In this document: one piece after another, positions 3,224 to 38,239 of the stretch
Numbering within the stretch: the stretch's first letter is position 1
How the letters are laid out: each line of letters opens with the position of its first letter
Assembly: GCF_021390175.1 (NCBI RefSeq)
Contig: NZ_CP090004.1
Location: 2,294,001-2,358,000 of the forward strand
Direction: 5' to 3'
From: Flagellimonas sp. HMM57
GTDB lineage: Bacteria; Bacteroidota; Bacteroidia; Flavobacteriales; Flavobacteriaceae
DNA length: 64,000 nt
Translations under genes and position numbers: made by a program
The notes under the pieces: model-generated
What the model saw: only the letters and a program-made list of their open reading frames with translations
The model's database searches: none
What the model was told of the DNA's origin: nothing

Positions 3224-4309
3224 ATGACCGAAAAAGACTTTCTGTCCAAAAGTTATGCTGATTTACCTTCAGAGGGAAAAGTTACATGGAAAGCGCCCAG
3301 TAATATTGCTTTGGTCAAATATTGGGGAAAAAAGGCCAATCAGATTCCTGCTAATCCATCCATTAGCTTTACGCTCGATGCCTGTGCAACGACGACCTCG
3401 GTTTCATATACCAAAAAGGAAGGTGATAGTCCGCAATTTTCGTTTGATTTAATTTTTGAAGGAAAACCCAAAGAAGATTTTAAGCCGAAGATTCAGACTT
3501 TTTTTGAACGCATAGAAAAGTATCTTCCTTTCTTAAAATCGTATCACTTCATAATTGAAACATCAAATTCCTTTCCCCATAGTAGCGGAATAGCTTCCTC
3601 TGCAAGTGGAATGGCTGCCCTATCGCTTTGTCTTATGGATATTGAAAAAAAGCTGGATAGTAGCATGAGCGATGATTTCTTCAGGAAAAAAGCCTCCTTT
3701 TTGGCACGTTTAGGTTCGGGAAGTGCAGGTAGAAGTATCGAAGGGGATTTAATTCAATGGGGCAAATATGCCGCTATCGAGGAAAGTTCCGATTTGTACG
3801 GAGTACGGTATCCCTTTAAAATAGCCACTGTTTTTAAGAATTTTCATGATACCATTTTATTGGTGCACAAGGGCCAAAAACAGGTAAGTAGTTCTGTTGG
3901 ACATAATTTAATGCACGACCATCCATATGCTGAAAGACGTTTTGCCCAAGCCCATCAAAATTTGGATAAACTGAAAACTATTTTTGAAAATGGGGACTTG
4001 GACAATTTCATAAAAATTGTTGAAAGCGAAGCACTTACCCTACATGCAATGATGATGACAAGCATGCCTTATTTTATCCTTATGAAACCCGAAACTTTGG
4101 AAATTATCAATAAAATATGGAGTTATAGGGCATCAACAAAAGTGCCGTTATGCTTCACGTTGGATGCAGGCGCCAATGTACATCTGTTGTATCCTGAATC
4201 GGTGAAAGAAAAAGTTATTCAATTTATTCAGGATGAATTGGTTGTGCATTGCGAGAAGGGACATTATATTTGCGACCGAATTGGCGACGGTGCAAGAAAG
4301 TTACGTTAA
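3224..4309 (+). CDS. mvaD: Diphosphomevalonate decarboxylase
   Basis: Converts mevalonate 5-diphosphate to isopentenyl diphosphate in the cytoplasm, the last step of the mevalonate route to isoprenoids. The 361-residue protein carries the family N-terminal motif APSNIALVKYWGKK, the GHMP-kinase phosphate loop SSGIASSASGMAAL, and the GSGSAGRSIEGD segment characteristic of this enzyme. The C-terminus contains LCFTLDAGANVHLLYP, the second GHMP motif. It starts at an ATG shortly after a TATATTTG box. The next gene downstream is a mevalonate-kinase-like GHMP kinase and then a prenyltransferase, forming an isoprenoid cluster. Confidence 0.96.
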   Translation: MTEKDFLSKSYADLPSEGKVTWKAPSNIALVKYWGKKANQIPANPSISFTLDACATTTSVSYTKKEGDSPQFSFDLIFEGKPKEDFKPKIQTFFERIEKYLPFLKSYHFIIETSNSFPHSSGIASSASGMAALSLCLMDIEKKLDSSMSDDFFRKKASFLARLGSGSAGRSIEGDLIQWGKYAAIEESSDLYGVRYPFKIATVFKNFHDTILLVHKGQKQVSSSVGHNLMHDHPYAERRFAQAHQNLDKLKTIFENGDLDNFIKIVESEALTLHAMMMTSMPYFILMKPETLEIINKIWSYRASTKVPLCFTLDAGANVHLLYPESVKEKVIQFIQDELVVHCEKGHYICDRIGDGARKLR

Positions 4310-27097: not shown

Positions 27098-28384
27098 TTA
27101 TAGACTAAACACTTTTTCCATTTTGGCCTGAATCTCCTCTAAACACAAATTCCCTAAACTTCCCTCATGGGTATGGTGTATGTCTTTTTTGGGTTGAAAA
27201 GTTCCGGCCTCAATTTCAGCGCCCATTTTTTTATAGGCATCCCTAAAGGGCATTCCATTTTTGACCAACTCGTTCAAGGTATCCACGCTAAAGAGGTAAT
27301 TGTATTTTGGGTCATCGAGAATTTTGTCATTGACCTTGACTTCTTTTAGACTAAAGTGCATCAACTCCAAACATGCCTTAATATCTTGAATAGCGGGCAC
27401 TATAACCTCTTTGACCAATTGAAGGTCTCTGTGATAACCACTTGGCAGGTTATTCGTAATAAGAACAAGTTGATTGGGCACTGCCTGGATCTTATTGCAT
27501 TTGGCCCGGATCAGTTCAAAAACATCTGGATTCTTTTTGTGCGGCATAATACTGCTTCCCGTAGTCAGTTCATCCGGAAATGAAATGAAATCAAAATTTT
27601 GGCTCATATACAGACAGATGTCCATAGCCAGTTTGGAAAGTGTTGAAGCGATACTTGAAATACCGAATCCTGTCGCTTTTTCCACTTTTCCACGACCCAT
27701 TTGGGCAGCAACTACATTGTATTTCATGGTTGCAAACCTCATTTCTTTAGTGGTACTTGTTCTGTCCACAGGAAAAGAACTGCCATAGCCCGCAGCGCTC
27801 CCCAGCGGATTCTGGTCGGCTATTTTATAAGCAGCATCAACAAAAAATAAGTCATCAATTAGGCTTTCGGCATACGCTGAAAACCACAGCCCAAAAGAAG
27901 AGGGCATGGCAATTTGTAAGTGTGTATACCCTGGAAGTAAGATAGCTTTATGCTTATCAGCTAAACCTAACAAAAGCTCAAAAAGGTTTTTCACCCCTAA
28001 CTTTATTTCTGCTAACTCATTTTTTAGATAGAGTTGCATGGCTACCAAAACTTGGTCGTTTCGCGATCTGGCGGTATGGATTTTTTTACCGGTATCCCCA
28101 AGTTTTTCGATGAGCAGGAACTCAATTTTGGAATGCATATCCTCAAAAGTGTCCTCTATGGTAAAAGTGCCCTCCTCAATGGTTTTTGCGATACCATCCA
28201 ATTCCCTGACCAAATCTTCTGATTCGTCTTTGTTGATCAAAGCTACTTCACCTAACATTTTTGCGTGTGCCTTAGAGGCGATTACGTCATACTTTGCCAG
28301 TAGCAAATCCAATTCCCTATCATTGCCTACCGTAAAATGGTCTATTTTTTGGTCTGTACTGAATCCTTTGTCCCAGAGTTTCAT
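27098..28384 (-). CDS. argH: Argininosuccinate lyase
   Basis: Cleaves argininosuccinate to arginine and fumarate, the last step of arginine synthesis. The 428-residue protein carries the fumarase/aspartase-superfamily signature GSSIMPHKKNPD and the ArgH segments ARSRNDQV and LPGYTHLQIAMPSSFG, and begins MKLWDKGFSTDQKIDHFTVG. It is the last gene of the minus-strand arginine operon; its start overlaps the stop of the ACT-domain gene (ATGA). The gene is full length. Confidence 0.97.
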   Translation of the reverse strand: MKLWDKGFSTDQKIDHFTVGNDRELDLLLAKYDVIASKAHAKMLGEVALINKDESEDLVRELDGIAKTIEEGTFTIEDTFEDMHSKIEFLLIEKLGDTGKKIHTARSRNDQVLVAMQLYLKNELAEIKLGVKNLFELLLGLADKHKAILLPGYTHLQIAMPSSFGLWFSAYAESLIDDLFFVDAAYKIADQNPLGSAAGYGSSFPVDRTSTTKEMRFATMKYNVVAAQMGRGKVEKATGFGISSIASTLSKLAMDICLYMSQNFDFISFPDELTTGSSIMPHKKNPDVFELIRAKCNKIQAVPNQLVLITNNLPSGYHRDLQLVKEVIVPAIQDIKACLELMHFSLKEVKVNDKILDDPKYNYLFSVDTLNELVKNGMPFRDAYKKMGAEIEAGTFQPKKDIHHTHEGSLGNLCLEEIQAKMEKVFSL

Positions 28385-28791
28385 TTCTTCAGATTATAAG
28401 CGTTAGTTAATTTAAGCAGAACCTTTATGGCCTTTTCTGCATCTTTTTCTTCTACGAAGATATGGTCATGATAGTAAGCAGCAATTACATTACAACTAAT
28501 TTTATCATTTGCCAGTGCTGTTGAAATTGCTGAAGTAAGCCCAATGGCGTGAAGAGCGGAATGAACGGTTAGCGTGATGCAGGAAGCTACAAAATCATAA
28601 GTTAGATTTGAACGGTCAGCATGCTCTTTTTTTAAAACAAGGGTTACTCCTTCATCTTCCTTGAAAGTTCCATGAACAATAGAAAAATCTATCTCATAAG
28701 AATGGGGTACGGTTACGAACACATACCTATTCTTGTGAAGGACAGGTTCCATATTGGATAAAAGTTTGGACAGATTTGTTTCTCCCGACAT
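28381..28791 (-). CDS. ACT domain-containing protein
   Basis: A 136-residue cytoplasmic protein with tandem ACT-like folds; it resembles the small stand-alone ACT proteins grouped as COG3602 (N-terminus MSGETNLSKLLSNMEPVL). ACT domains bind amino acids and regulate enzymes. It is wedged between argE-like and argH with an ATGA overlap with argH, which suggests sensing of arginine or an intermediate, but this is inference only. No catalytic motif is present. Confidence 0.82.
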   Translation of the reverse strand: MSGETNLSKLLSNMEPVLHKNRYVFVTVPHSYEIDFSIVHGTFKEDEGVTLVLKKEHADRSNLTYDFVASCITLTVHSALHAIGLTSAISTALANDKISCNVIAAYYHDHIFVEEKDAEKAIKVLLKLTNAYNLKK

Positions 28792-28801
28792 TCCTAAACT
28801 T

Positions 28802-29875
28802 TTAATTGCTTAAAAACCCTTTCAAAATCTTGATATACACATCTATGCCTTTCTCGATTTCATCTAGATAAATAAACTCATCTGCGGAATGCGAACGTGT
28901 GCTATCACCAGGTCCCAGTTTAACAGATTGGCAACTTAAGGCCGCTTGATCTGAAAGTGTGGGTGAGCCATAGGTTTTTCTACCAAGTGCAAGTCCGCTT
29001 TGTACCAAATCATGGTCTGGGTCAATTGCCGAGGAATTCAATCGTAACGAACGCGGGGTAATTTTACAAGGCGCTTCATTTTGAAGCATCTCCGCTATTT
29101 CCTCGTTGGAATAACGGTCATTTACCCGAACATCGATTACCAAATCGACCTGTGCGGGTACCACATTGTGCTGACTTCCGGCATTGATTTGCGTCACGGT
29201 CATTTTTACTTCGCCCAAGGCATCGGAAGTTTTATCGAATGTATATTTTTTGAACCACTCAAGAACCTCGATAGTGTTGTAAATGGAATTGTTATCATTT
29301 GGATGCGCCGCATGTGATGGTGTTCCTTCCACAACAGCATCAAAAACGACCAATCCCTTTTCAGCTATGGCCAGATTCATTAGGGTAGGCTCTCCAACAA
29401 CGGCTACATCTATTTCTGGAAGCATGGGCAATAGGCCTCTTAAGCTTCGTTCCCCAGCATTTTCTTCTTCTGCAGTAGCTGCAATAATTATATTGTGACT
29501 TAGATCTTCATGATTATAAAAATGCGTAAAAGTGGCTAAAAGCGAGACCAAACAACCTCCTGCATCATTGCTTCCCAAGCCAAATAGTTTTCCATCTTCA
29601 ATGTGTGGGTCAAAGGGGTCCTTGGTATAGGCACTATTGGGTTTAACGGTGTCGTGATGGGAATTTAAAAGCAGTGTGGGTTTGTTTTCGTCAAAGTATT
29701 TGTTGAAGGCATACACGTTGTTGAACTGTCGCTCCGTTTTAATTCCGAAGTTGGCCAACCATTTTTGAATGACATCTGCTGTTTCATCCTCTTCTTCAGA
29801 AAATGAACGAATGGCAATCAGCTCTTTCAGAAGTTGGATTGCTTTTTGGGTTAGTTCCGTTTGATGTACTTTCAT
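28802..29875 (-). CDS. argE: M20-family N-acyl-ornithine deacylase (ArgE-like)
   Basis: A 357-residue zinc amidohydrolase that removes the acetyl or succinyl group from N2-acylated ornithine or citrulline. Metal ligands sit in LLNSHHDTVKP, GLGSNDAGG, and ATAEEENAGERS. It overlaps argB by ATGA and precedes the ACT gene. Because this operon encodes an argF'-like carbamoyltransferase, the substrate is probably N-acetyl- or N-succinyl-citrulline rather than ornithine. The acyl group cannot be settled by eye. Confidence 0.9.
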   Translation of the reverse strand: MKVHQTELTQKAIQLLKELIAIRSFSEEEDETADVIQKWLANFGIKTERQFNNVYAFNKYFDENKPTLLLNSHHDTVKPNSAYTKDPFDPHIEDGKLFGLGSNDAGGCLVSLLATFTHFYNHEDLSHNIIIAATAEEENAGERSLRGLLPMLPEIDVAVVGEPTLMNLAIAEKGLVVFDAVVEGTPSHAAHPNDNNSIYNTIEVLEWFKKYTFDKTSDALGEVKMTVTQINAGSQHNVVPAQVDLVIDVRVNDRYSNEEIAEMLQNEAPCKITPRSLRLNSSAIDPDHDLVQSGLALGRKTYGSPTLSDQAALSCQSVKLGPGDSTRSHSADEFIYLDEIEKGIDVYIKILKGFLSN

Positions 29876-30651
29876 AAGGTCAGCGTTGTAAAATTTGAAT
29901 TTTCTTCTTGAAGCATATCACTGTTTCCTATACAAACTTGTTTTACATTTTGTTGCAATGCGTGGAAACAGTTGTGCATTTTTGGAAGCATTCCTTCCGC
30001 AATGATTCCTTCTGCTAAAAGGGACTTATATTTCTTGGAATCGATATGTTGAATTACGGAATTTTCGTCATCAATGTTTTGCAGTACTCCTTTTTTCTCA
30101 AAACAATAATATAATGTGGTTTCAAATTCAGAAGACATGGCTATCGCCAGTTCCGCTGCAATAGTATCTGCATTAGTGTTTAGAAGTTGTCCTTTACCAT
30201 TATGGGTCAATGCGCAAAAAGTAGGGGTAAGGTCAGCCTTTAAAAGCATCGAAACAGTATCGGAATTTGCTTTTTCCACATCACCAACGAGCCCAAAATC
30301 AATAACGCCCACAGGTCTTTTCTTTGCAGTGATGGCATTTCCATCGGCACCGCTCATCCCAATAGCATTGCAATCCTGGGCTTGAAGTTCTGCTACAATT
30401 TTTTTGTTTAATAACCCGCCATAAACCATGATGGCAACGTCCAAACTCTCGGCATTGGTTATTCTTCTTCCGTTGACCATTTTAGCTACGACCCCAAGTT
30501 TTTCTCCAATCTCCGTGGCTTTTTTACCTCCTCCGTGAACCAAGATTTTGTTCCTATTAATTTTTGAGAATAGCTCCAAGAGATTAGATAACTCTTGGTC
30601 ATCATTAATGATGTTACCCCCTATTTTTACTATGGATAATTTGGCTTTCAT
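29872..30651 (-). CDS. argB: Acetylglutamate (or succinylglutamate) kinase
   Basis: Phosphorylates N-acylglutamate, the second committed step of the pathway. The 259-residue amino-acid kinase has SIVKIGGNII at the N-terminus, the glycine loop HGGGKKATEIGEKLG, and GMSGADGNAITAKK. It lacks the N-terminal helix that allows hexameric, arginine-sensitive forms, so it is probably not inhibited by arginine directly. It follows argF' by 12 bases and overlaps argE by four. Confidence 0.95.
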   Translation of the reverse strand: MKAKLSIVKIGGNIINDDQELSNLLELFSKINRNKILVHGGGKKATEIGEKLGVVAKMVNGRRITNAESLDVAIMVYGGLLNKKIVAELQAQDCNAIGMSGADGNAITAKKRPVGVIDFGLVGDVEKANSDTVSMLLKADLTPTFCALTHNGKGQLLNTNADTIAAELAIAMSSEFETTLYYCFEKKGVLQNIDDENSVIQHIDSKKYKSLLAEGIIAEGMLPKMHNCFHALQQNVKQVCIGNSDMLQEENSNFTTLTL

Positions 30652-30663
30652 AGATTATCTCCT

Positions 30664-31629
30664 TTATTCTCTCCCTTTGGGAGAGGGAACATTACTGTTT
30701 TCCAATATCTTTTTTAAGACGATTTGGGCCGCAAACGTTCTGTTATTAGATTGTTCCAAGACCAAAGACTGTTCTCCATCCAATACGGCATCTTCAACCA
30801 CTACATTTCTTCGCACGGGAAGACAATGCATGAATTTTGCATTTCCCAACTTAGCTTTGGTCATCATCCAACGGCTATCATGTGATAGTACCTTTCCATA
30901 ATCTGAATAACTGCTCCAATTTTTTACATAGACAAAATCAGCACCTTCCAAAGCTTTATTTTGGTCATATTCAATATCACAACCTTTCGTAATTGACGGA
31001 TTTAGTTCATATCCTTTTGGATGTGTAATGGTAAATTCAACGTTTTGCTTTTTTATCATCTCAGCAAACGAGTTTGCTACTGCATGCGGTAATGCTTTTG
31101 GGTGTGGAGCCCATGATAATACCACCTTGGGTTTTGGTTTGGTATTGTTTTCGGCAATGGTAATGGCATCAGCGAGCGCCTGCAATGGATGTGCTATGGA
31201 ACTTTCCATATTTACTACGGGAATGGATGCGTATTTGCTAAAACCATTGAGCACTTCTTCTGCTTCATCTTTTGTTCTGTCTTCGAGTTTTGCAAACGCC
31301 CTTATGGCGATAATATCACAGTATTGGGAAACCACTTTGGCCGCCTCTTTAATGTGTTCCGAATTTCCTTGGTCCATCACAGTTCCATCCTCATATTCCA
31401 AGGCCCAACCCTCACTTCCAAAATTCATTACCATCACTTCCATTCCCATATGCATGGCTGCTTTTTGAGTGCTTAGCCGAGTGCGTAGACTATTGTTAAA
31501 AAATAAAAGACAGATAGTTTTGTGCTTCCCCATTTCTTGAAACTGATAGGGGTCTTTTTTTAATGCAATCGCTTCGTCTACCCAATTGGGAAGGAAATCA
31601 ATGTCATTTATGGATAAATAGTTTTTCAT
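30664..31629 (-). CDS. argF': N-succinyl/acetyl-ornithine carbamoyltransferase
   Basis: Transfers a carbamoyl group to an N-acylated ornithine. The 321-residue protein has the carbamoyl-phosphate loop SLRTRLSTQKAAMHMG, which differs from the STRTR of ordinary ornithine transcarbamylase, and the conserved MHCLPVRRNVVVEDAVLDG near the C-terminus. In characterised Bacteroides this enzyme uses N-succinylornithine; a succinyl specificity is therefore likely here but not proven. It sits between argD and argB, with a REP-like palindrome in the 84-base gap before it. Confidence 0.93.
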   Translation of the reverse strand: MKNYLSINDIDFLPNWVDEAIALKKDPYQFQEMGKHKTICLLFFNNSLRTRLSTQKAAMHMGMEVMVMNFGSEGWALEYEDGTVMDQGNSEHIKEAAKVVSQYCDIIAIRAFAKLEDRTKDEAEEVLNGFSKYASIPVVNMESSIAHPLQALADAITIAENNTKPKPKVVLSWAPHPKALPHAVANSFAEMIKKQNVEFTITHPKGYELNPSITKGCDIEYDQNKALEGADFVYVKNWSSYSDYGKVLSHDSRWMMTKAKLGNAKFMHCLPVRRNVVVEDAVLDGEQSLVLEQSNNRTFAAQIVLKKILENSNVPSPKGRE

Positions 31630-31667
31630 TTTATTTTTTTGTCATTTTCAGCTTAGTTAAAGTCCAT

Positions 31668-31689
31668 ACCCTGAGCGTAGTCGAAGGGT
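31668..31689. repeat. REP-like palindrome, copy 1
   Basis: ACCCTGAGCGTAGTCGAAGGGT: arms ACCCT and AGGGT flank the core GAGCGTAGTCGA. It occupies the short gap between argD and argF'. The core CTGAGCGnAGTCGAAG is shared with copies at 32159-32180 and 36011-36030, while the arms differ but stay complementary. Confidence 0.75.
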
Positions 31690-31713
31690 GGAGTGTTGAG
31701 TTTGGCCGAAATA

Positions 31714-32862
31714 TCATCCCAACTCTTTTTGTAGTCCCTCAAAAAATAAATCGATATGGGTTTTGGTTATATTCAGAGCGGGTAAAAACCGTAGCAGTTT
31801 TTTGTTTTTGGCACTTCCCGTGAACATGTGTTGTTTATAAATGAGCCTTTTTCGTAAATCCACCACTTCAAACCCAAATTCTAAACCTAGCATCAACCCC
31901 CTGCCTTTTATTTTTTTTATTTCTGAAAATGCTTTGGCTTTTTCTTTAAAATAGCTGCCCAACTCGGTAGCATTTACCAGCAAACCTTCTTGTTCCAGAA
32001 CTTCTAAGACGGCCAAGGTTGCTGTACAGGCCAAGTGATTGCCGCCAAAAGTGGTTCCCAAGAGACCGTAAGAAGCTTTAAAGGATTCATGTACTAGAAT
32101 ACCACCGACGGGAAAACCGTTTCCCATGCCTTTGGCAATAGAAATAATATCGGGTTGTACACTTCGACTCCGCTCAGTGTCCAAATGATGTTGAAAGGCG
32201 AAAAACTTTCCACTTCGCCCAAATCCCGATTGTACTTCGTCCGCTATGAGGACAATCCCTTTCTTTTTACAATTTTCGGCAATGAATTGATAAAATTCAG
32301 TTGTGGGTTCATCCAAGCCGCCAACTCCTTGAATTGCTTCTAGGATAACGGCGCAGTACTCGTCCGAATTCACTGTTTTTTCAAAGGCTTCAAAATCGTT
32401 TAAAGGAAGAAAAGTAACCTCTTGCTGTTTGTTTATGGGTGCATTTATATTGGGATTGTCCGTAGCGGCAACTGCAGCTGAGGTTCTTCCATGAAAGCTG
32501 TTGTTAAAGGCGATTACCTTGGATTTTTGGGTATGAAAGGATGCCAGTTTTAGAGCATTTTCATTGGCTTCTGCGCCCGAATTGCACATAAAAAGGTTGT
32601 AAGCTTCACAGTTTGAGGCTTTTCCCAAAACGGAAGCAAGCTCTTTTTGAATTGGATTTTGGATGGAGTTGCTGTAGAATCCAATCTTGTCCAATTGCTC
32701 TTTTAACCTATTTACATAGTGGGGATGGGAATGTCCAATGGAAATCACGGCGTGGCCTCCATAGAAATCGAGATATTTTTTGCCCTTATCATCTGTTAGT
32801 TCAATACCCTTGGCAGATACTGGGGTGACGTCATATAAAGGATATACATCAAATAGTTTCAT
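31714..32862 (-). CDS. argD: Acetylornithine/succinylornithine aminotransferase with repeat-derived insertion
   Basis: A class III PLP-dependent transaminase (382 residues) making N-acyl-ornithine from the semialdehyde. The PLP-binding region is intact: NSGAEANENALKLA, ADEVQSGFGRSG, and the Schiff-base Lys244 in SIAKGMGNGFPVGG. Residues 227-235 (LDTERSRSV) are extra compared with the family and are encoded by a REP-like palindrome at 32159-32180 read in frame. The insertion is a loop about nine residues before the PLP lysine. The 119-base gap upstream is filled by CAAGTT-type repeats. Confidence 0.94.
   Translation of the reverse strand: MKLFDVYPLYDVTPVSAKGIELTDDKGKKYLDFYGGHAVISIGHSHPHYVNRLKEQLDKIGFYSNSIQNPIQKELASVLGKASNCEAYNLFMCNSGAEANENALKLASFHTQKSKVIAFNNSFHGRTSAAVAATDNPNINAPINKQQEVTFLPLNDFEAFEKTVNSDEYCAVILEAIQGVGGLDEPTTEFYQFIAENCKKKGIVLIADEVQSGFGRSGKFFAFQHHLDTERSRSVQPDIISIAKGMGNGFPVGGILVHESFKASYGLLGTTFGGNHLACTATLAVLEVLEQEGLLVNATELGSYFKEKAKAFSEIKKIKGRGLMLGLEFGFEVVDLRKRLIYKQHMFTGSAKNKKLLRFLPALNITKTHIDLFFEGLQKELG
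32159..32180. repeat. REP-like palindrome, copy 2, inside argD
   Basis: On the minus strand it reads ACACTGAGCGGAGTCGAAGTGT, with arms ACACT and AGTGT and the same core as the intergenic copies. Its coding frame gives the DTERSRSV residues inserted in ArgD. Confidence 0.8.
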
Positions 32863-32870
32863 CTAAAGTT

Positions 32871-32935
32871 CAAGTTTAAGTATCAAGTGCAAATTCAAGT
32901 TCAAGTGTCAAGTTCAAACTCAAATATCAAATACA
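32871..32935. repeat. Low-complexity CAAGTT/CAAATT repeats 5' of argD
   Basis: A run of short units such as TCAAGTT, TCAAATT and TCAAGTG, starting nine bases before the argD start codon. In the mRNA sense it reads as repeated ACTTGAA. A close relative lies at 46660-46705, also directly 5' of a start codon. Confidence 0.7.
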
Positions 32936-32981
32936 ATTCTGTAGCTATAGGGTTGAGTTTGATTCTTGTGTTTGAGTTTTT

Positions 32982-33776
32982 TCATCCTTTTCTGATTTGG
33001 CTTATTTTTTCAAAAGAAGTGACTATTCCCCGTATCAGTGAAGAACTTAGTCCTTGGTGCTCCATTTCGTTCAATCCGGAAATTGTACATCCTTTCGGTG
33101 TCGTAACCCGATCTATCTCTTCTTCGGGATGGCTTCCAGATTCTATTAAGAGACTTGCGGCACCGTTACAGGTATGCATTGCCAGTTCTTGGGCTTCCTT
33201 GGCATCAAAACCCAACTGAATTGCTCCCTGGGTAGTTGCTCGAATCAGGCGCATCCAAAAAGCGATACCACTTGCGCAGATTACCGTCGCAGCCTGCATC
33301 TGTTCTTCGGGAATTTCCAATGTATGTCCCATTCGATTAAAAATGGCTTTGGAAAGGTCAATTCGTTTTTTTCCAAATTCGTTGCTGCAAAGGCATGTCA
33401 TGGAACTCCCTACTGAAATAGCGGTATTGGGCATGCTACGGATGATGTACTTATCTGCACCAATAATCTCCTCTATTTTGGAAATATTGAAACCTGTTAT
33501 AGTACTGATTACCACATGTTTTTCTGTTAGTAAATCTTTTACTTGCTCAAGAATATCTGAAAAATGTCCAGGTTGTACTGCAAAAATCAAGATATCGGAT
33601 TTTTTTACGGCCTCACGGTTGTCCCAGGTAACAGTGACGTTGCCGTATTTTTCATAATCCATAATTTCTGTAGTGTTCCTTTTGGTCAAGTACATGGTCG
33701 TGGCGCCATTGCTGTGTAAAACTCCCTTTGCAATGGCCAAACCCAAATTTCCCGCTCCTATGATTGCTATTTTCAT
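32982..33776 (-). CDS. proC: Pyrroline-5-carboxylate reductase
   Basis: Reduces pyrroline-5-carboxylate to proline with NAD(P)H. The 264-residue protein starts with the Rossmann loop KIAIIGAGNLGLAIAKGVL and ends with the conserved segment (TTPKGCTISGLNEMEHQGL) that forms the active site. It lies inside the arginine operon, 10 bases after argC. In flavobacteria proC is often found there; it could share the pathway's glutamate-semialdehyde branch, or simply be co-regulated. Confidence 0.95.
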   Translation of the reverse strand: MKIAIIGAGNLGLAIAKGVLHSNGATTMYLTKRNTTEIMDYEKYGNVTVTWDNREAVKKSDILIFAVQPGHFSDILEQVKDLLTEKHVVISTITGFNISKIEEIIGADKYIIRSMPNTAISVGSSMTCLCSNEFGKKRIDLSKAIFNRMGHTLEIPEEQMQAATVICASGIAFWMRLIRATTQGAIQLGFDAKEAQELAMHTCNGAASLLIESGSHPEEEIDRVTTPKGCTISGLNEMEHQGLSSSLIRGIVTSFEKISQIRKG

Positions 33777-33786
33777 AATTTTCTTT

Positions 33787-34761
33787 TTAAAAAACTCCTG
33801 CTTTTAGTTGTAAACCCGTGTTTTCAAAAAACCCGAACATTAGATTCATGTTCTGAATCGCTTGTCCCGATGCACCTTTGATTAAATTGTCTATTGCTGA
33901 GGTTACCAATAAAATATCTTCGTGCTTGTGTAAGTGAACATGACATTGATTGGTATTCACCACTTGCTTTAAATGAATGGCCTCTCCTGAAAGTTGTGTG
34001 AAGATGGCATTTGAATAGAATTCGTTATAAAGTTCCTTTGCTTGATTCAATGAACCTTCAAAATTGGTGTAGGCCGTAGCCAAAATACCCCTTGTAAAAT
34101 TACCCCGATTGGGCAAGAAATGGAGCTTTGCGGTTTTGTTTCCAAAGGAATTCAGGCTTTCTCCAATTTCCCCTAAGTGTTGATGAGTGAAAGGTTTGTA
34201 CCAAGAAGCATTGTTGTTTCTCCAACTAAAATGGGAAGTTGATGATAGGCCAACACCTGCACCTGTACTCCCTGTTACCGCATTTATATGAATATCGTTC
34301 TGTAGCATATCCGCTTTGGCCAAGGGCAACAAGGCCAATTGTATAGCGGTTGCAAAACAACCGGGATTGGCAATGGCAGCCGCAGTTTTTATTTTCTCTT
34401 TGTTCAATTCGGGAAGGCCATAAACAAATGCCTTTCCATTGTATTCAGCATCTTTTTGTAACCGGAAATCGTTGCTTAAATCAATGATTTTAGTACGTGC
34501 TTCAAAACTGTTTTCTGCTAAAAACTTGGTGGAATTTCCATGGCCCAAGCAAAGAAAAACTACATCAACATCCGGTTTTACCTCACCGGAAAATTTTAAA
34601 TCCGTCAATCCCAATAAATCCTGATGGGTAGTGGTAATAGGTTGTCCTGCACGTGTTGTACTGTAAACAAAATCGATATCAGCTTGAGGATGATTCAATA
34701 AAAGCCGTACCAATTCACCGCCCGTGTACCCAGACCCACCAATAATTCCTGCTTTAATCAT
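33787..34761 (-). CDS. argC: N-acetyl-gamma-glutamyl-phosphate reductase
   Basis: Reduces N-acylglutamyl phosphate to the semialdehyde with NADPH. The 324-residue protein has IIGGSGYTGGELVRLLLNHP at the N-terminus and the catalytic cysteine in ANPGCFATAIQLALLPL. The HFSWRNNNASWYKPFTHQH segment carries the catalytic histidine. Its start overlaps the argG stop by eight bases, indicating coupled translation. Confidence 0.96.
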   Translation of the reverse strand: MIKAGIIGGSGYTGGELVRLLLNHPQADIDFVYSTTRAGQPITTTHQDLLGLTDLKFSGEVKPDVDVVFLCLGHGNSTKFLAENSFEARTKIIDLSNDFRLQKDAEYNGKAFVYGLPELNKEKIKTAAAIANPGCFATAIQLALLPLAKADMLQNDIHINAVTGSTGAGVGLSSTSHFSWRNNNASWYKPFTHQHLGEIGESLNSFGNKTAKLHFLPNRGNFTRGILATAYTNFEGSLNQAKELYNEFYSNAIFTQLSGEAIHLKQVVNTNQCHVHLHKHEDILLVTSAIDNLIKGASGQAIQNMNLMFGFFENTGLQLKAGVF

Positions 34762-35944
34762 CTTTTTGGTTTACATGGTTAGCTATTTTCCCTGAATTTG
34801 AAAGGATTTTGATAAACCCTTTGGCTTCGTCTGCTGTCCAACCTTTGTTCATTTCACCATAGCTGCCAAAAGAGGCATTCATTAAATCGTGTTTTGAAGA
34901 GATTCCATTGAGTTCAAATCGGTAAGGATGGAGTGTGATGTACACATCGCCCGATACTTTTTTCTGGGTGTCCGTTAGGAAAGCTTCAATATTCCGCATA
35001 ACGTCGTCCAAATAATTTCCTTCATGCAAAAGCATACCGTAAAAGTTGCCCAATTGTTCCTTTTGGTATTGTTGCCATTTGCTCAGGGTGTGCTTTTCCA
35101 GCAAATGGTGCGCTTTTATAATGATGAGCGATGCGGCAGCTTCAAAACCTACTCTCCCCTTTATGCCGATAATGGTATCACCTACATGAATATCTCTTCC
35201 AATGGCATACTTGGAAGCGACAGCTTCCAGTTTTTCAATATTCTCAACAGGTGAAGCAGATTCACCATCAATTGCTATTAGCTCTCCTTTTTCAAAAGTT
35301 AGTTTAACTTCTTTAGGGAGTTCTTTTTCCAATTGACTTGGGAATGCTGATTCTGGCAACGGTAGGTGTGAAGTCAGGGTTTCTTCACCACCAACAGAAG
35401 TGCCCCATAATCCTTTGTTTATGGAGTATTTTGCCTTTTCCCAAGAATAGTCAATCCCGTTATGTTGCAGATAGTCAATTTCGGCTTCCCTTGATAGTTT
35501 ATTGTCCCGAATCGGTGTTATTATTTGAATTTCTGGGGCCAATATTTGGAAGATCATATCGAATCTTACCTGATCGTTCCCTGCTCCAGTACTGCCATGG
35601 GCGATGGAGGTAGCTCCAATTTTTTTAGCATGATTTACAATCTCTATGGCCTGCACAATTCGTTCTGCACTTACGGATAGGGGATACGTATTATTTCGAA
35701 GTACATTTCCAAAGATGAGGTACTTGACTACTTTATCGTAAAAGTTGGAAACCGCATCAATCGAAGTATAGGTTTTTGCTCCTAATTCCAACGCTTTTTG
35801 TTGGATGTTCAGAATCTCTTGTTCTGAAAACCCCCCAGTATTTACACTTACGGCATGGACTTCATATCCTTCTTCTTTTGATAGGTATTTGGCACAGTAT
35901 GAAGTATCCAGGCCACCACTATAGGCTAAAACTAATTTTTTCAT
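34754..35944 (-). CDS. argG: Argininosuccinate synthase
   Basis: Joins citrulline and aspartate with ATP to argininosuccinate. The 396-residue protein has the pyrophosphatase loop LAYSGGLDTSYC and GSTGAGNDQVRFD. A GTG at 35968 extends the frame by eight residues, but the ATG at 35944 gives the standard MKKLVLAYSGG start and is preferred. It is the second gene of the operon after the GNAT gene, from which it is separated by 99 bases containing two palindromes. Confidence 0.96.
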   Translation of the reverse strand: MKKLVLAYSGGLDTSYCAKYLSKEEGYEVHAVSVNTGGFSEQEILNIQQKALELGAKTYTSIDAVSNFYDKVVKYLIFGNVLRNNTYPLSVSAERIVQAIEIVNHAKKIGATSIAHGSTGAGNDQVRFDMIFQILAPEIQIITPIRDNKLSREAEIDYLQHNGIDYSWEKAKYSINKGLWGTSVGGEETLTSHLPLPESAFPSQLEKELPKEVKLTFEKGELIAIDGESASPVENIEKLEAVASKYAIGRDIHVGDTIIGIKGRVGFEAAASLIIIKAHHLLEKHTLSKWQQYQKEQLGNFYGMLLHEGNYLDDVMRNIEAFLTDTQKKVSGDVYITLHPYRFELNGISSKHDLMNASFGSYGEMNKGWTADEAKGFIKILSNSGKIANHVNQKDD

Positions 35945-35960
35945 TTGGTTTTTTTGGTAT

Positions 35961-35976
35961 TCCTGCACATGCAGGA
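35961..35976. repeat. Short palindrome TCCTGCA-CA-TGCAGGA
   Basis: Seven-base arms with a two-base centre, in the gap upstream of argG. The flanking ATTCCTGCACATGCAGGAAT resembles palindromic repeats that many bacteria carry between genes. Only one copy was found here. Confidence 0.5.
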
Positions 35977-36010
35977 ATCTATTCTACATCTTAGATTCTA
36001 TGCCCCTTTA

Positions 36011-36030
36011 TGCTTCGACTTCGCTCAGCA
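36011..36030. repeat. REP-like palindrome, copy 3
   Basis: On the minus strand it reads TGCTGAGCGAAGTCGAAGCA, with arms TGCT and AGCA around the core shared with the copies at 31668 and 32159. It lies between the GNAT gene and argG. Confidence 0.75.
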
Positions 36031-36043
36031 TCCAGGGAAATCA

Positions 36044-36658
36044 TTATTTATTTTTCTTTTTAAGGAAAAGGTTCTGTTTCATTTCTTTTAACCGTTGAAA
36101 GGCTTTTCCGTTCAGTTTTCTTGATTTGTATTTGTTTGCATCAGGGTCATATAACATTCCTGTGCAAAGGCACATTTTACGCTCTGTTCTTGTAAGGATA
36201 TCGAAGTTTTTACAAGTCTGGCATCCTTTCCAGAACTCTGGGTCATCCGTCAATTCTGAAAACGTTACTGGTTTATAGCCCAATTCATAATTCATCTTCA
36301 TTACGGGTAGGCCAGTGGTTATTCCAAAGATTTTGGCATCTGGGAACTTCTCTTTGGATAGCTCGAACACCGCTTTTTTGATTTTCTTGGCGAGTCCTTG
36401 TTTTCTAAAGTCAGGATGTACTATTAATCCAGAATTCGCTACAAAGTTCTTGTTGCCCCATACTTCGATATAGCAAAACCCAGCGAATTTTTCACCTTCT
36501 AAAGCGATTACCGCATTGCCATTCTGTAGTCTTTTGATAATGTACTCGGGCGTACGTTGTGCAATACCGGTACCTCGAACTTTTGCAGATTCGGTAATGG
36601 TGTCACTTATGATTTGCGCGTATTTATAATGGGATTCGTTAGCAATTACAATTTTCAT
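36044..36658 (-). CDS. GNAT N-acetyltransferase, ArgA-like, with C-terminal Cys cluster
   Basis: A 204-residue acyltransferase heading the arginine operon and therefore the best candidate for the first step, acylation of glutamate. The acetyl-CoA motif is GLIVHPDFRKQGLAKKIKKA at about residues 78-97. Unusually for a GNAT, the C-terminal part has a four-cysteine pattern (CQTCKNF ... MCLCTGM), suggesting a bound metal. The tail is basic. Acetyl versus succinyl donor is undetermined. Upstream is a 200-base leader with a GC-rich block. Confidence 0.8.
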   Translation of the reverse strand: MKIVIANESHYKYAQIISDTITESAKVRGTGIAQRTPEYIIKRLQNGNAVIALEGEKFAGFCYIEVWGNKNFVANSGLIVHPDFRKQGLAKKIKKAVFELSKEKFPDAKIFGITTGLPVMKMNYELGYKPVTFSELTDDPEFWKGCQTCKNFDILTRTERKMCLCTGMLYDPDANKYKSRKLNGKAFQRLKEMKQNLFLKKKNK

Positions 36659-36862
36659 TGCATGGCTTTTTAAAACTGATAAATAATTAAGATTTGTGTG
36701 GTTGTTGCGGAAATGGACTCACCTAATTCCATAAGTTATGTGCACCCTTACGGGCGACGGCGTGGAGCGAATGGACGTACTGGAGCAATGTAGCTCTGTG
36801 TAGATAGTATGTGGTTTTGTCCTTTCATTATGTGATAAATGTACAAATAAATTCCAACTGAC

Positions 36863-38239
36863 CTAGAATGACCTTAACTTTTTGAAGAAATATAACTTTT
36901 TGTCTTTTTTAACGGCTATTTCATAAATCAAAAAGCCAAAGACTAAAATATATTCAATGGCCAACAGCCAAAGATTTTCTTGATACTCGGGATTGGAATA
37001 GGCATAATAGCTCAATATTACCACAAATGACCATAAGATAGGATACCTGTAGTTTGTAAGAACACAAAGGACCAGCAAGTACACAATATACCAGGGGTGC
37101 AAGGTGCTTGATAAAAAGTAGTACCCAGAAAGCAATGCCAGCATAGAAACAACCAATGTATCAAACTGTTGATTTTTTCTAAAGAATGTTAACAGGAGTG
37201 CTCCGATTATTGTGGAAAATGCAACTATTTTTCCATATACCTTAATCAATTCCCAAGGTTTGGCATCAAAATACGTAACTCCTATTTTTTTGACTAGGTT
37301 ATACATACCAGCGTTAAACTCAAAATTGGAAAACCAAAGTCCAACCGTTTCCGAATAATTATTGATAAAAGTATTGTTGTAAAAAGGGAGTAATAAAACA
37401 AGGCATGTTGCACCTGTCAAAATGTAAAATCCAATACTTTTCTTGAATCCAAAATATTTAAGAAACAGCGGCAAAAATAGAACGGGCACAAGTTTTACCA
37501 GTATAGCTATGGCATATATTGGAGCGCCCAAAAACCATTTACTTGTTTTGATTAGATATAGTGACCAAATAAAGAAAAACAACATTACACCTTCAAAATG
37601 AAGGTTGCCTGTCAACTCCAGAATGACCAATGGATTTAGAAAATACCAAAATATCATATGACTTGGCTGGTTCAACTTCTGAAGTAATTTTTTGCCAAAA
37701 TATAAGATACCTATGTCCGCGAGTATGATGAACAAGCGCATAGTGATGATGGTGCCTAGAATACTTCCATTGCCCACAAAGGCACTAAGCGTAAACAGGA
37801 ATTGATTTACAGGTGGATAATTGCTGAAATGTTTTGCACTCAATTCACCCATTCCAGCATATAACTCCTGAGCGTTTGCAATAGGCAGGGCAGGGTCTAA
37901 AATGAGCGTATTTGGTAAGTGAATGTATGGGTTTACTCCGTTTTTAATGAGTTCACCATCCCATATAAATCGGTAAAAATCTTGAGAAAGATTGGGTTCG
38001 GTGATTAAAAAGACCAGACGAAAAAGAATCCCAAAGGTCAATAGCAATTTAGAGTCCAACTTTTTAGATTGGAGAATCAGGTAGTAGCAAAAAAAGAGAG
38101 CACTGAAGAGTACGATAAGTTTTGGAAAATCCTCGCGTTGCAAGTTGTAAGCAAAAATGTAATAGAGAAGTAAACTCAGAATTACTAGTAGTACTGGTAT
38201 ACCATAAGGTTTCCAGAATATTGAAAATCGATTGGACAT
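36863..38239 (-). CDS. GT-C mannosyltransferase-like integral membrane protein
   Basis: A protein of about 458 residues with roughly ten to twelve transmembrane helices and a periplasmic acidic motif near the start (SQDFYRFIWDGELIKNGVNPY), as in polyprenyl-phosphate-dependent mannosyltransferases. It probably transfers a hexose from a lipid carrier to an envelope glycan; acceptor and sugar are unknown. The frame extends to an ATG at 38287, but MSNRFSIFWK at 38239 gives a more typical N-terminus. The gene is divergent from the AraC regulator. Confidence 0.8.
   Translation of the reverse strand: MSNRFSIFWKPYGIPVLLVILSLLLYYIFAYNLQREDFPKLIVLFSALFFCYYLILQSKKLDSKLLLTFGILFRLVFLITEPNLSQDFYRFIWDGELIKNGVNPYIHLPNTLILDPALPIANAQELYAGMGELSAKHFSNYPPVNQFLFTLSAFVGNGSILGTIITMRLFIILADIGILYFGKKLLQKLNQPSHMIFWYFLNPLVILELTGNLHFEGVMLFFFIWSLYLIKTSKWFLGAPIYAIAILVKLVPVLFLPLFLKYFGFKKSIGFYILTGATCLVLLLPFYNNTFINNYSETVGLWFSNFEFNAGMYNLVKKIGVTYFDAKPWELIKVYGKIVAFSTIIGALLLTFFRKNQQFDTLVVSMLALLSGYYFLSSTLHPWYIVYLLVLCVLTNYRYPILWSFVVILSYYAYSNPEYQENLWLLAIEYILVFGFLIYEIAVKKDKKLYFFKKLRSF

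Follow-up and report, generated by a model that had tools for sequence, protein, structure and literature searches.

A dispersed palindromic repeat read in frame within argD of a Flagellimonas/Allomuricauda genome and its relatives

The argD gene at this locus raises the question of how a palindrome with intergenic copies nearby came to be read as part of a conserved enzyme. The window is the whole 64,000-nucleotide stretch that was analyzed, positions 2294001-2358000 of the genome of a Flagellimonas/Allomuricauda relative. Its arginine genes lie on the minus strand. The original prediction was that a dispersed palindrome had been inserted in frame into argD. We put the probability at roughly 0.85 that such a palindrome inserted into a loop of ArgD and is kept where the frame and the protein allow, and that the same site was refilled repeatedly, in both orientations.

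The insert in argD and its repeat family

The argD gene (31714..32862, minus strand) encodes an acetylornithine aminotransferase of 382 amino acids. Its best NCBIfam match is TIGR00707 (E 3.8e-106), with 355.1 bits, which is under the model's curated cut-off of 410.05. Foldseek confirmed the aminotransferase fold and nothing beyond it. The next ArgD match in the window genome, among the matches listed, is 35% identical. Directly upstream of argD, positions 32866-32938 contain three imperfect 29-nt direct repeats of the AAGTTCAAGTTTAAGTATC type.

The gene contains a 30-bp palindrome at 32155..32184, read on the minus strand as TTGGACACT-GAGCGGAGTCGA-AGTGTACAA and on the forward strand as TTGTACACT-TCGACTCCGCTC-AGTGTCCAA. 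The arms are 9 nt each, with one mismatch. A 20-base pattern, CACTTCGACTCCGCTCAGTG, lies within it at 32160-32179. Residues 227-235, LDTERSRSV, fall in the palindrome as predicted; their codons are at 32158..32184 (minus strand), one base to the left of the predicted 32159-32185. They are extra relative to the family, but not all nine of them. Relatives have two residues there, for example GI or NI, and the net gain is seven residues, or 21 bp, between FFAFQHH and DIISIAK of the ArgD loop. The three PDB homologues with alignments displayed (2eh6, 2e54, and 2ord) have a seven-residue gap at the insert. The frame stays open, and K244 and many further residues are retained. The codon of K244 is at 32131..32133 (minus strand), nine residues beyond V235, which agrees with the predicted distance of about nine residues to the PLP lysine. 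K244 is invariant in 28 aligned sequences, and from its position in the family we take it to be the PLP-binding lysine. The AlphaFold model has a mean pLDDT of 71.6, with residues 211-231 below 50. At this low local confidence, the insert appears to lie between a helix (223-227) and a strand (239-242).

Two intergenic copies match the palindrome core, as had been claimed. One is in the argF-argD gap (31668..31689, minus strand), where it reads ACCC-TTCGACTACGCTCA-GGGT and matches the 20-base pattern at 31669-31688. The other (36010..36031, plus strand) lies upstream of the minus-strand argG reading frame and reads ATGC-TTCGACTTCGCTCA-GCAT, with its core at 36014-36027. The 20-base pattern misses this copy because its arms differ. 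At up to three mismatches, 0.01 matches to the pattern are expected in the window, and none of 100 shuffles contained two. An Rfam scan of window positions 28000-37000 returned nothing at gathering thresholds.

The core, TTCGACTNCGCTCA (reverse, TGAGCGNAGTCGAA), has 24 exact copies in the 4.16-Mb single-contig genome. It has 49 copies at up to one mismatch, and the reversed control has 1. In a family sample of one genome per genus, at least one exact core was present in 91 of 149 genomes, the richest containing 76, and there was none in the other 58.

The arms of the copies pair far above chance. No two of the 24 exact copies have the same pair of 5-nt arms, yet the arms pair in 88 of 120 cells. 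The mean over 20,000 permutations was 48.9 and the maximum was 67; slid controls gave 18-34. In 59 copies from other fetched loci, stem positions 1, 2, and 3 are paired in 59, 54, and 54. Five of the 59 come from the genome of the window (L158 twice, L213, L243, and L273), and many are interrelated. Some positions speak against a strict stem: in LeuS copy 1, position 4 is paired in 0 of 8, and a PrmC stem is mismatched in 3 of 8. The middle of the element is 12 nt, unpaired or weakly paired, with short stems.

A short conserved core with genic and intergenic copies, often in close pairs, could also be a DNA uptake sequence, built up by point mutation and transformation bias and not inserted. 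The counts do not favor this, since there are only 24 exact copies in the genome and none in 58 of the family genomes. The stem outside the core also pairs, and sites with and without the element differ in length. We regard an uptake sequence as scarcely credible.

The ArgD site across relatives

An alignment of ArgD from relatives had been proposed as the check. It was made with the best 80 of 294 named loci plus the window, 81 sequences in all. By ArgD, the closest of these named relatives is Flagellimonas sp. 389 (97%). Eight of the 80 have a filled loop and 72 an empty one (HH-GI/NI-QPD or similar), L072 and L103 being counted as empty. The loop is thus present in some and absent in most, and its residues were not found conserved in homologues lacking the palindrome. 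Nine sequences have an internal insertion; in all of them it follows residue 226 and is a palindrome of this kind. Relative to L059, two other length changes occur among the 81 sequences: a one-residue deletion, seen in four Maribacter, and one at the C terminus, seen in 18.

The palindromes at residue 226 are in both orientations. Those of F. amoyensis, F. aequoris, Muricauda sp. ARW1Y1, and A. chongwuensis have the window orientation and add seven residues. The insert of an uncultured Muricauda (L084) has the opposite orientation and adds five. Two Croceivirga-like genomes (L095 and L096) also have the opposite orientation, with another stem, and gain six. Three different peptides occur at the site: TERSRS, STALS, and PSTSPS.

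In the argD of Flagellimonas sp. 389 (L048, about 3679-3729), an in-frame duplication of 21 bp has put two units of the element in tandem, for a gain of 14 residues. One unit is altered (TEQSQM).

When the insert columns are left out of the argD tree, carriers fall among species whose site is empty, as expected of insertion. Presence and absence require at least seven changes on this tree, which comes from a quick search with SH-aLRT support only, with several forks open and the placement of L084 unsure. Filled and empty genes pair with starred support in L049/L059, L051/L060, and L054/L063. The filled L050 clusters with the empty L065 and L067 (support 91).

The one clean ArgD pair is that of F. 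amoyensis (L049, filled) and A. taeanensis (L059, empty). The 60 columns on each side are 98% and 100% identical. L049 contains 25 nt of element where L059 has GGCA. The element replaces GGCA, and no target duplication was seen at this pair.

In the five same-orientation carriers, the 30-nt insert is identical at 27-30 of 30 positions, whereas the 120 flanking nucleotides are 74-85% identical. The inserts thus postdate the split of the genes. This speaks against an insert ancestral to the genus and precisely lost many times, although its patchy distribution, with the same position and orientation in five lineages, is what such losses could leave behind. The losses would also have had to recreate the two-residue loop of Maribacter, Zobellia, and Muriicola. 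An ancestral insert is very unlikely.

The same similarity can be read as sideways spread. A single insertion in argD may have been passed on by homologous recombination of argD segments, so that the five same-orientation lineages represent one event. These five carriers have nearly one stem, which independent landings need not give. The window, L050, L051, and L054 also share an off-palindrome GTAC. The gene contains signals of recombination. Identity between L049 and L059 drops to 82-85% past column 942, and that between L054 and L063 is 78-85% in columns 450-765. After its insert L054 reads CAA, whereas L063, its sister, and others in the group read GAA, a difference in favor of exchange. 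L050, however, retains the CAG of L065 and L067 directly after its insert, which speaks for a fresh landing. L049 has the bases of L059 on both sides. The nearest discriminating ones are 4-10 nt before and 6-9 nt after the insert, so any exchanged tracts would be about 50 bp or less. The inserts of L084 and of L095 and L096, in the opposite orientation and in L095 and L096 with another stem, would be separate events unless they were inverted in place. We hold spread from a single event to be a serious candidate at somewhat under even odds. Because argD recombines, some of the seven changes on the tree may be transfers, and part of the recurrence at the ArgD site may be lateral exchange of argD alleles.

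Repeated filling of one ArgD loop might also suggest that the loop is useful, for regulation, for subunit contact, or as an RNA hairpin in the transcript, and was selected. An RNA hairpin of -12.2 kcal/mol is predicted for the perfect 30-mer. At stem position 2 of LeuS copy 1, the differences preserve pairing (G-C in 6 and A-T in 2 of the 8 copies passing the filter). The window's own argD hairpin is weaker (-5.3 kcal/mol), however, and the PrmC stem has an A-C mismatch in 3 of 8 copies. The three ArgD peptides differ, the same LeuS and Mfd loops contain different repeat types, and the 72 empty relatives do without the insert. A selected loop is improbable. The insert peptide would instead be near neutral for the enzyme.

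Natural matched pairs, with and without the insert in near-identical enzymes, allow one to ask how the elements land and why one codon recurs. The ArgD pairs also allow one to ask what seven foreign residues near the active site cost.

Copies in other enzyme genes and a possible mechanism

Seventeen of the 49 copies are read in frame, with no stop, in eight conserved enzyme genes. They are in genes for DNA ligase (2) and beta-ketoacyl synthase (2) and in mfd (4), bioF (1), leuS (3), argD (1), purL (2), and prmC (2); in this count, the locus ends within the purL frame and the mfd start is unsettled. The 17 peptides are xERSR or xERSQ in nine, STxL or SATL in five, SGxE in two, and FDSAQ in one. 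One codon register is common to 14 of the 17, and five of the core's six reading frames have no stop. The remaining 32 copies are intergenic or in frames not confirmed as genes. The 17 exclude copies in short frames (64-101 amino acids) and a match at 3829555 with up to one mismatch in a 354-amino-acid frame, whose stem is unpaired and which appears to be a chance match. In three other many-copy genera, an open frame of at least 120 codons surrounds 7 of 30 loci examined (of 109 copies).

Sites that are filled in some loci and empty or differently filled in others also occur in LeuS, PrmC, beta-ketoacyl synthase, DNA ligase, and Mfd. A search for filled and empty pairs over the fetched loci gave 13 cases, few of them clean. 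The counts below, and those for BioF, include the window genome's locus and are among the matches listed.

LeuS of this genus contains repeats in several loops. One loop is of the ERSRS type in 12 of 30 loci (one as ERNRS) and of the VTSSAVE type in six, among the matches listed. Another has DAERSRS in four of the loci listed and LSGxE in nine. Mfd has a three-residue loop in 27 of 30 listed loci. In the window genome and in G197, a near relative, residues derived from the palindrome take its place, and in one further locus eleven unrelated residues do. PrmC has AERSRS in 10 of 30 loci among those listed and other sequences elsewhere. The beta-ketoacyl synthase insert is present in 2 of 26 listed loci, and TERSRS is present in 2 of 11 DNA ligase genes (12 rows) among the matches listed. 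BioF has IERSRN in 5 of the 24 listed loci covering the site, and its copy is therefore older. Such inserts account for some of the unusual variation in length among the LeuS, Mfd, and PrmC proteins of the genus, a variation that could pass for assembly error.

Two further features of LeuS were observed. In L175 and L186, a PAGRAG or PAGQAG repeat lies within the ERSRS element and keeps the frame, a nested insertion in a coding loop. At about residues 665-710 of the proteins' own numbering (L173-L187), 15 of 30 members have a large and very variable extra segment, and the other 15 have a few residues.

The element may be described as a palindrome of 20-30 bp with a constant core, TTCGACTNCGCTCA, and a variable self-complementary stem. 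It would land widely. Landings within genes would last only if the net length leaves the frame intact, the core falls in an open frame, and the protein accepts the extra residues. One ArgD loop would satisfy these conditions, and the same position would for that reason be refilled in these bacteria in both orientations. The element probably moves as a hairpin, by machinery acting in trans.

It is also conceivable, although doubtful, that only the core of 12-14 nt travels and that each landing forms the stem anew, the neighboring target strand being copied back on itself. Codons such as ArgD 226 would then be preferred targets and not merely tolerant ones. In argD the outer left stem reads TTGGA and the native right flank TCCAA, its reverse complement, a match expected under stem rebuilding at one well-resolved site. 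The private stems of the copies also fit it.

The intergenic pairs of the arginine region are mostly replacements of whole spacers. In several Allomuricauda-type genomes, arginine operon spacers (for example L064:2090-2200, L065:2890-2980, and L052:2900-3000) are filled by a longer composite of nested palindromes. In it a GGTCGAGC...GCGAGACC unit comes first and an inverted CTCGACTGCGCTCGAG unit after it, and some close relatives lack the composite.

Comparison with known palindromic elements

The element is of a known kind. It behaves like the Rickettsia palindromic elements (RPE) and the published intragenic REPs. It is a palindrome in the 20-40 bp range of REPs, dispersed and in many copies. 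It is also RPE-like, being inserted in frame in conserved protein genes and missing from their orthologues. REP-like, as it was first called, is correct for its form; searches for a GTAG/CGTC tag and for a link to a Y1 transposase found neither. Around the 24 exact copies, counting both sides out to 14 nt from the core, GTAG and CGTC occurred only 3 times each; far windows had 1 and 0. The window genome's only Y1_Tnp gene found (E <= 0.001) had no core at up to three mismatches in the 7 kb fetched. The 30 best-scoring Y1_Tnp loci of the family had no exact core; they are mostly IS200-like, so RAYT-like genes of other genera are hardly sampled among them. A Y1_Tnp match was only weakly commoner in copy-rich genomes, being present in 16 of the 28 genomes with at least 10 exact copies (both strands summed, hand-picked from the 149-genome table) and in 43 of the 121 others (Fisher p 0.052). 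It was absent from 12 of the 28.

RAYT-associated REPs and REPINs are short hairpin-forming repeats that are frequently found in close inverted pairs. The family described here resembles them in both respects. It differs in that the association with a Y1 transposase was not found, although this was tested weakly outside the window genome.

Neither this repeat family nor such recurrence at one site in many lineages was found in the open-licence PMC literature. Protein-coding palindromes, described mainly from Rickettsia and REP-rich genomes, are now extended to Flagellimonas/Allomuricauda relatives. Judging from sequence, repeat DNA appears to be tolerated within seemingly working proteins, and at the same ArgD spot in several related lineages.

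The RPE are described as 105-146 bp long (PMC2229807). As in that description, a palindromic repeat is fused in frame in conserved protein genes and the host protein is apparently tolerant. Unlike the RPE, compared here by description, each element gives ArgD a net gain of 15-21 bp, and the hosts are Flagellimonas/Allomuricauda relatives. The intragenic REPs are described as GTAG- and CGTC-tagged palindromes, some wholly within ORFs; the genes listed there for DNA ligase, tRNA synthetases, and repair are among these (Di Nocera et al. 2013, PMC3733652). CGTC repeats are reported there in Bacteroidetes, and the main text does not contain "flavobacteri." The recB genes of two Xanthomonas species have different REPs at about the same site, a precedent for site sharing (PMC3733652). 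The elements found here resemble those described in being short dispersed palindromes, single or as dimers, with alternative complementary stem residues and with copies in DNA ligase, tRNA synthetase, and repair genes (PMC3733652). They differ in their 12-nt middle; most of the REP loops described are short, with GTAG-15 loops of 9-15 (PMC3733652). Because it has no GTAG/CGTC tag, the family here is best placed as a variant of the protein-coding palindromes and not as a member of the tagged REPs.
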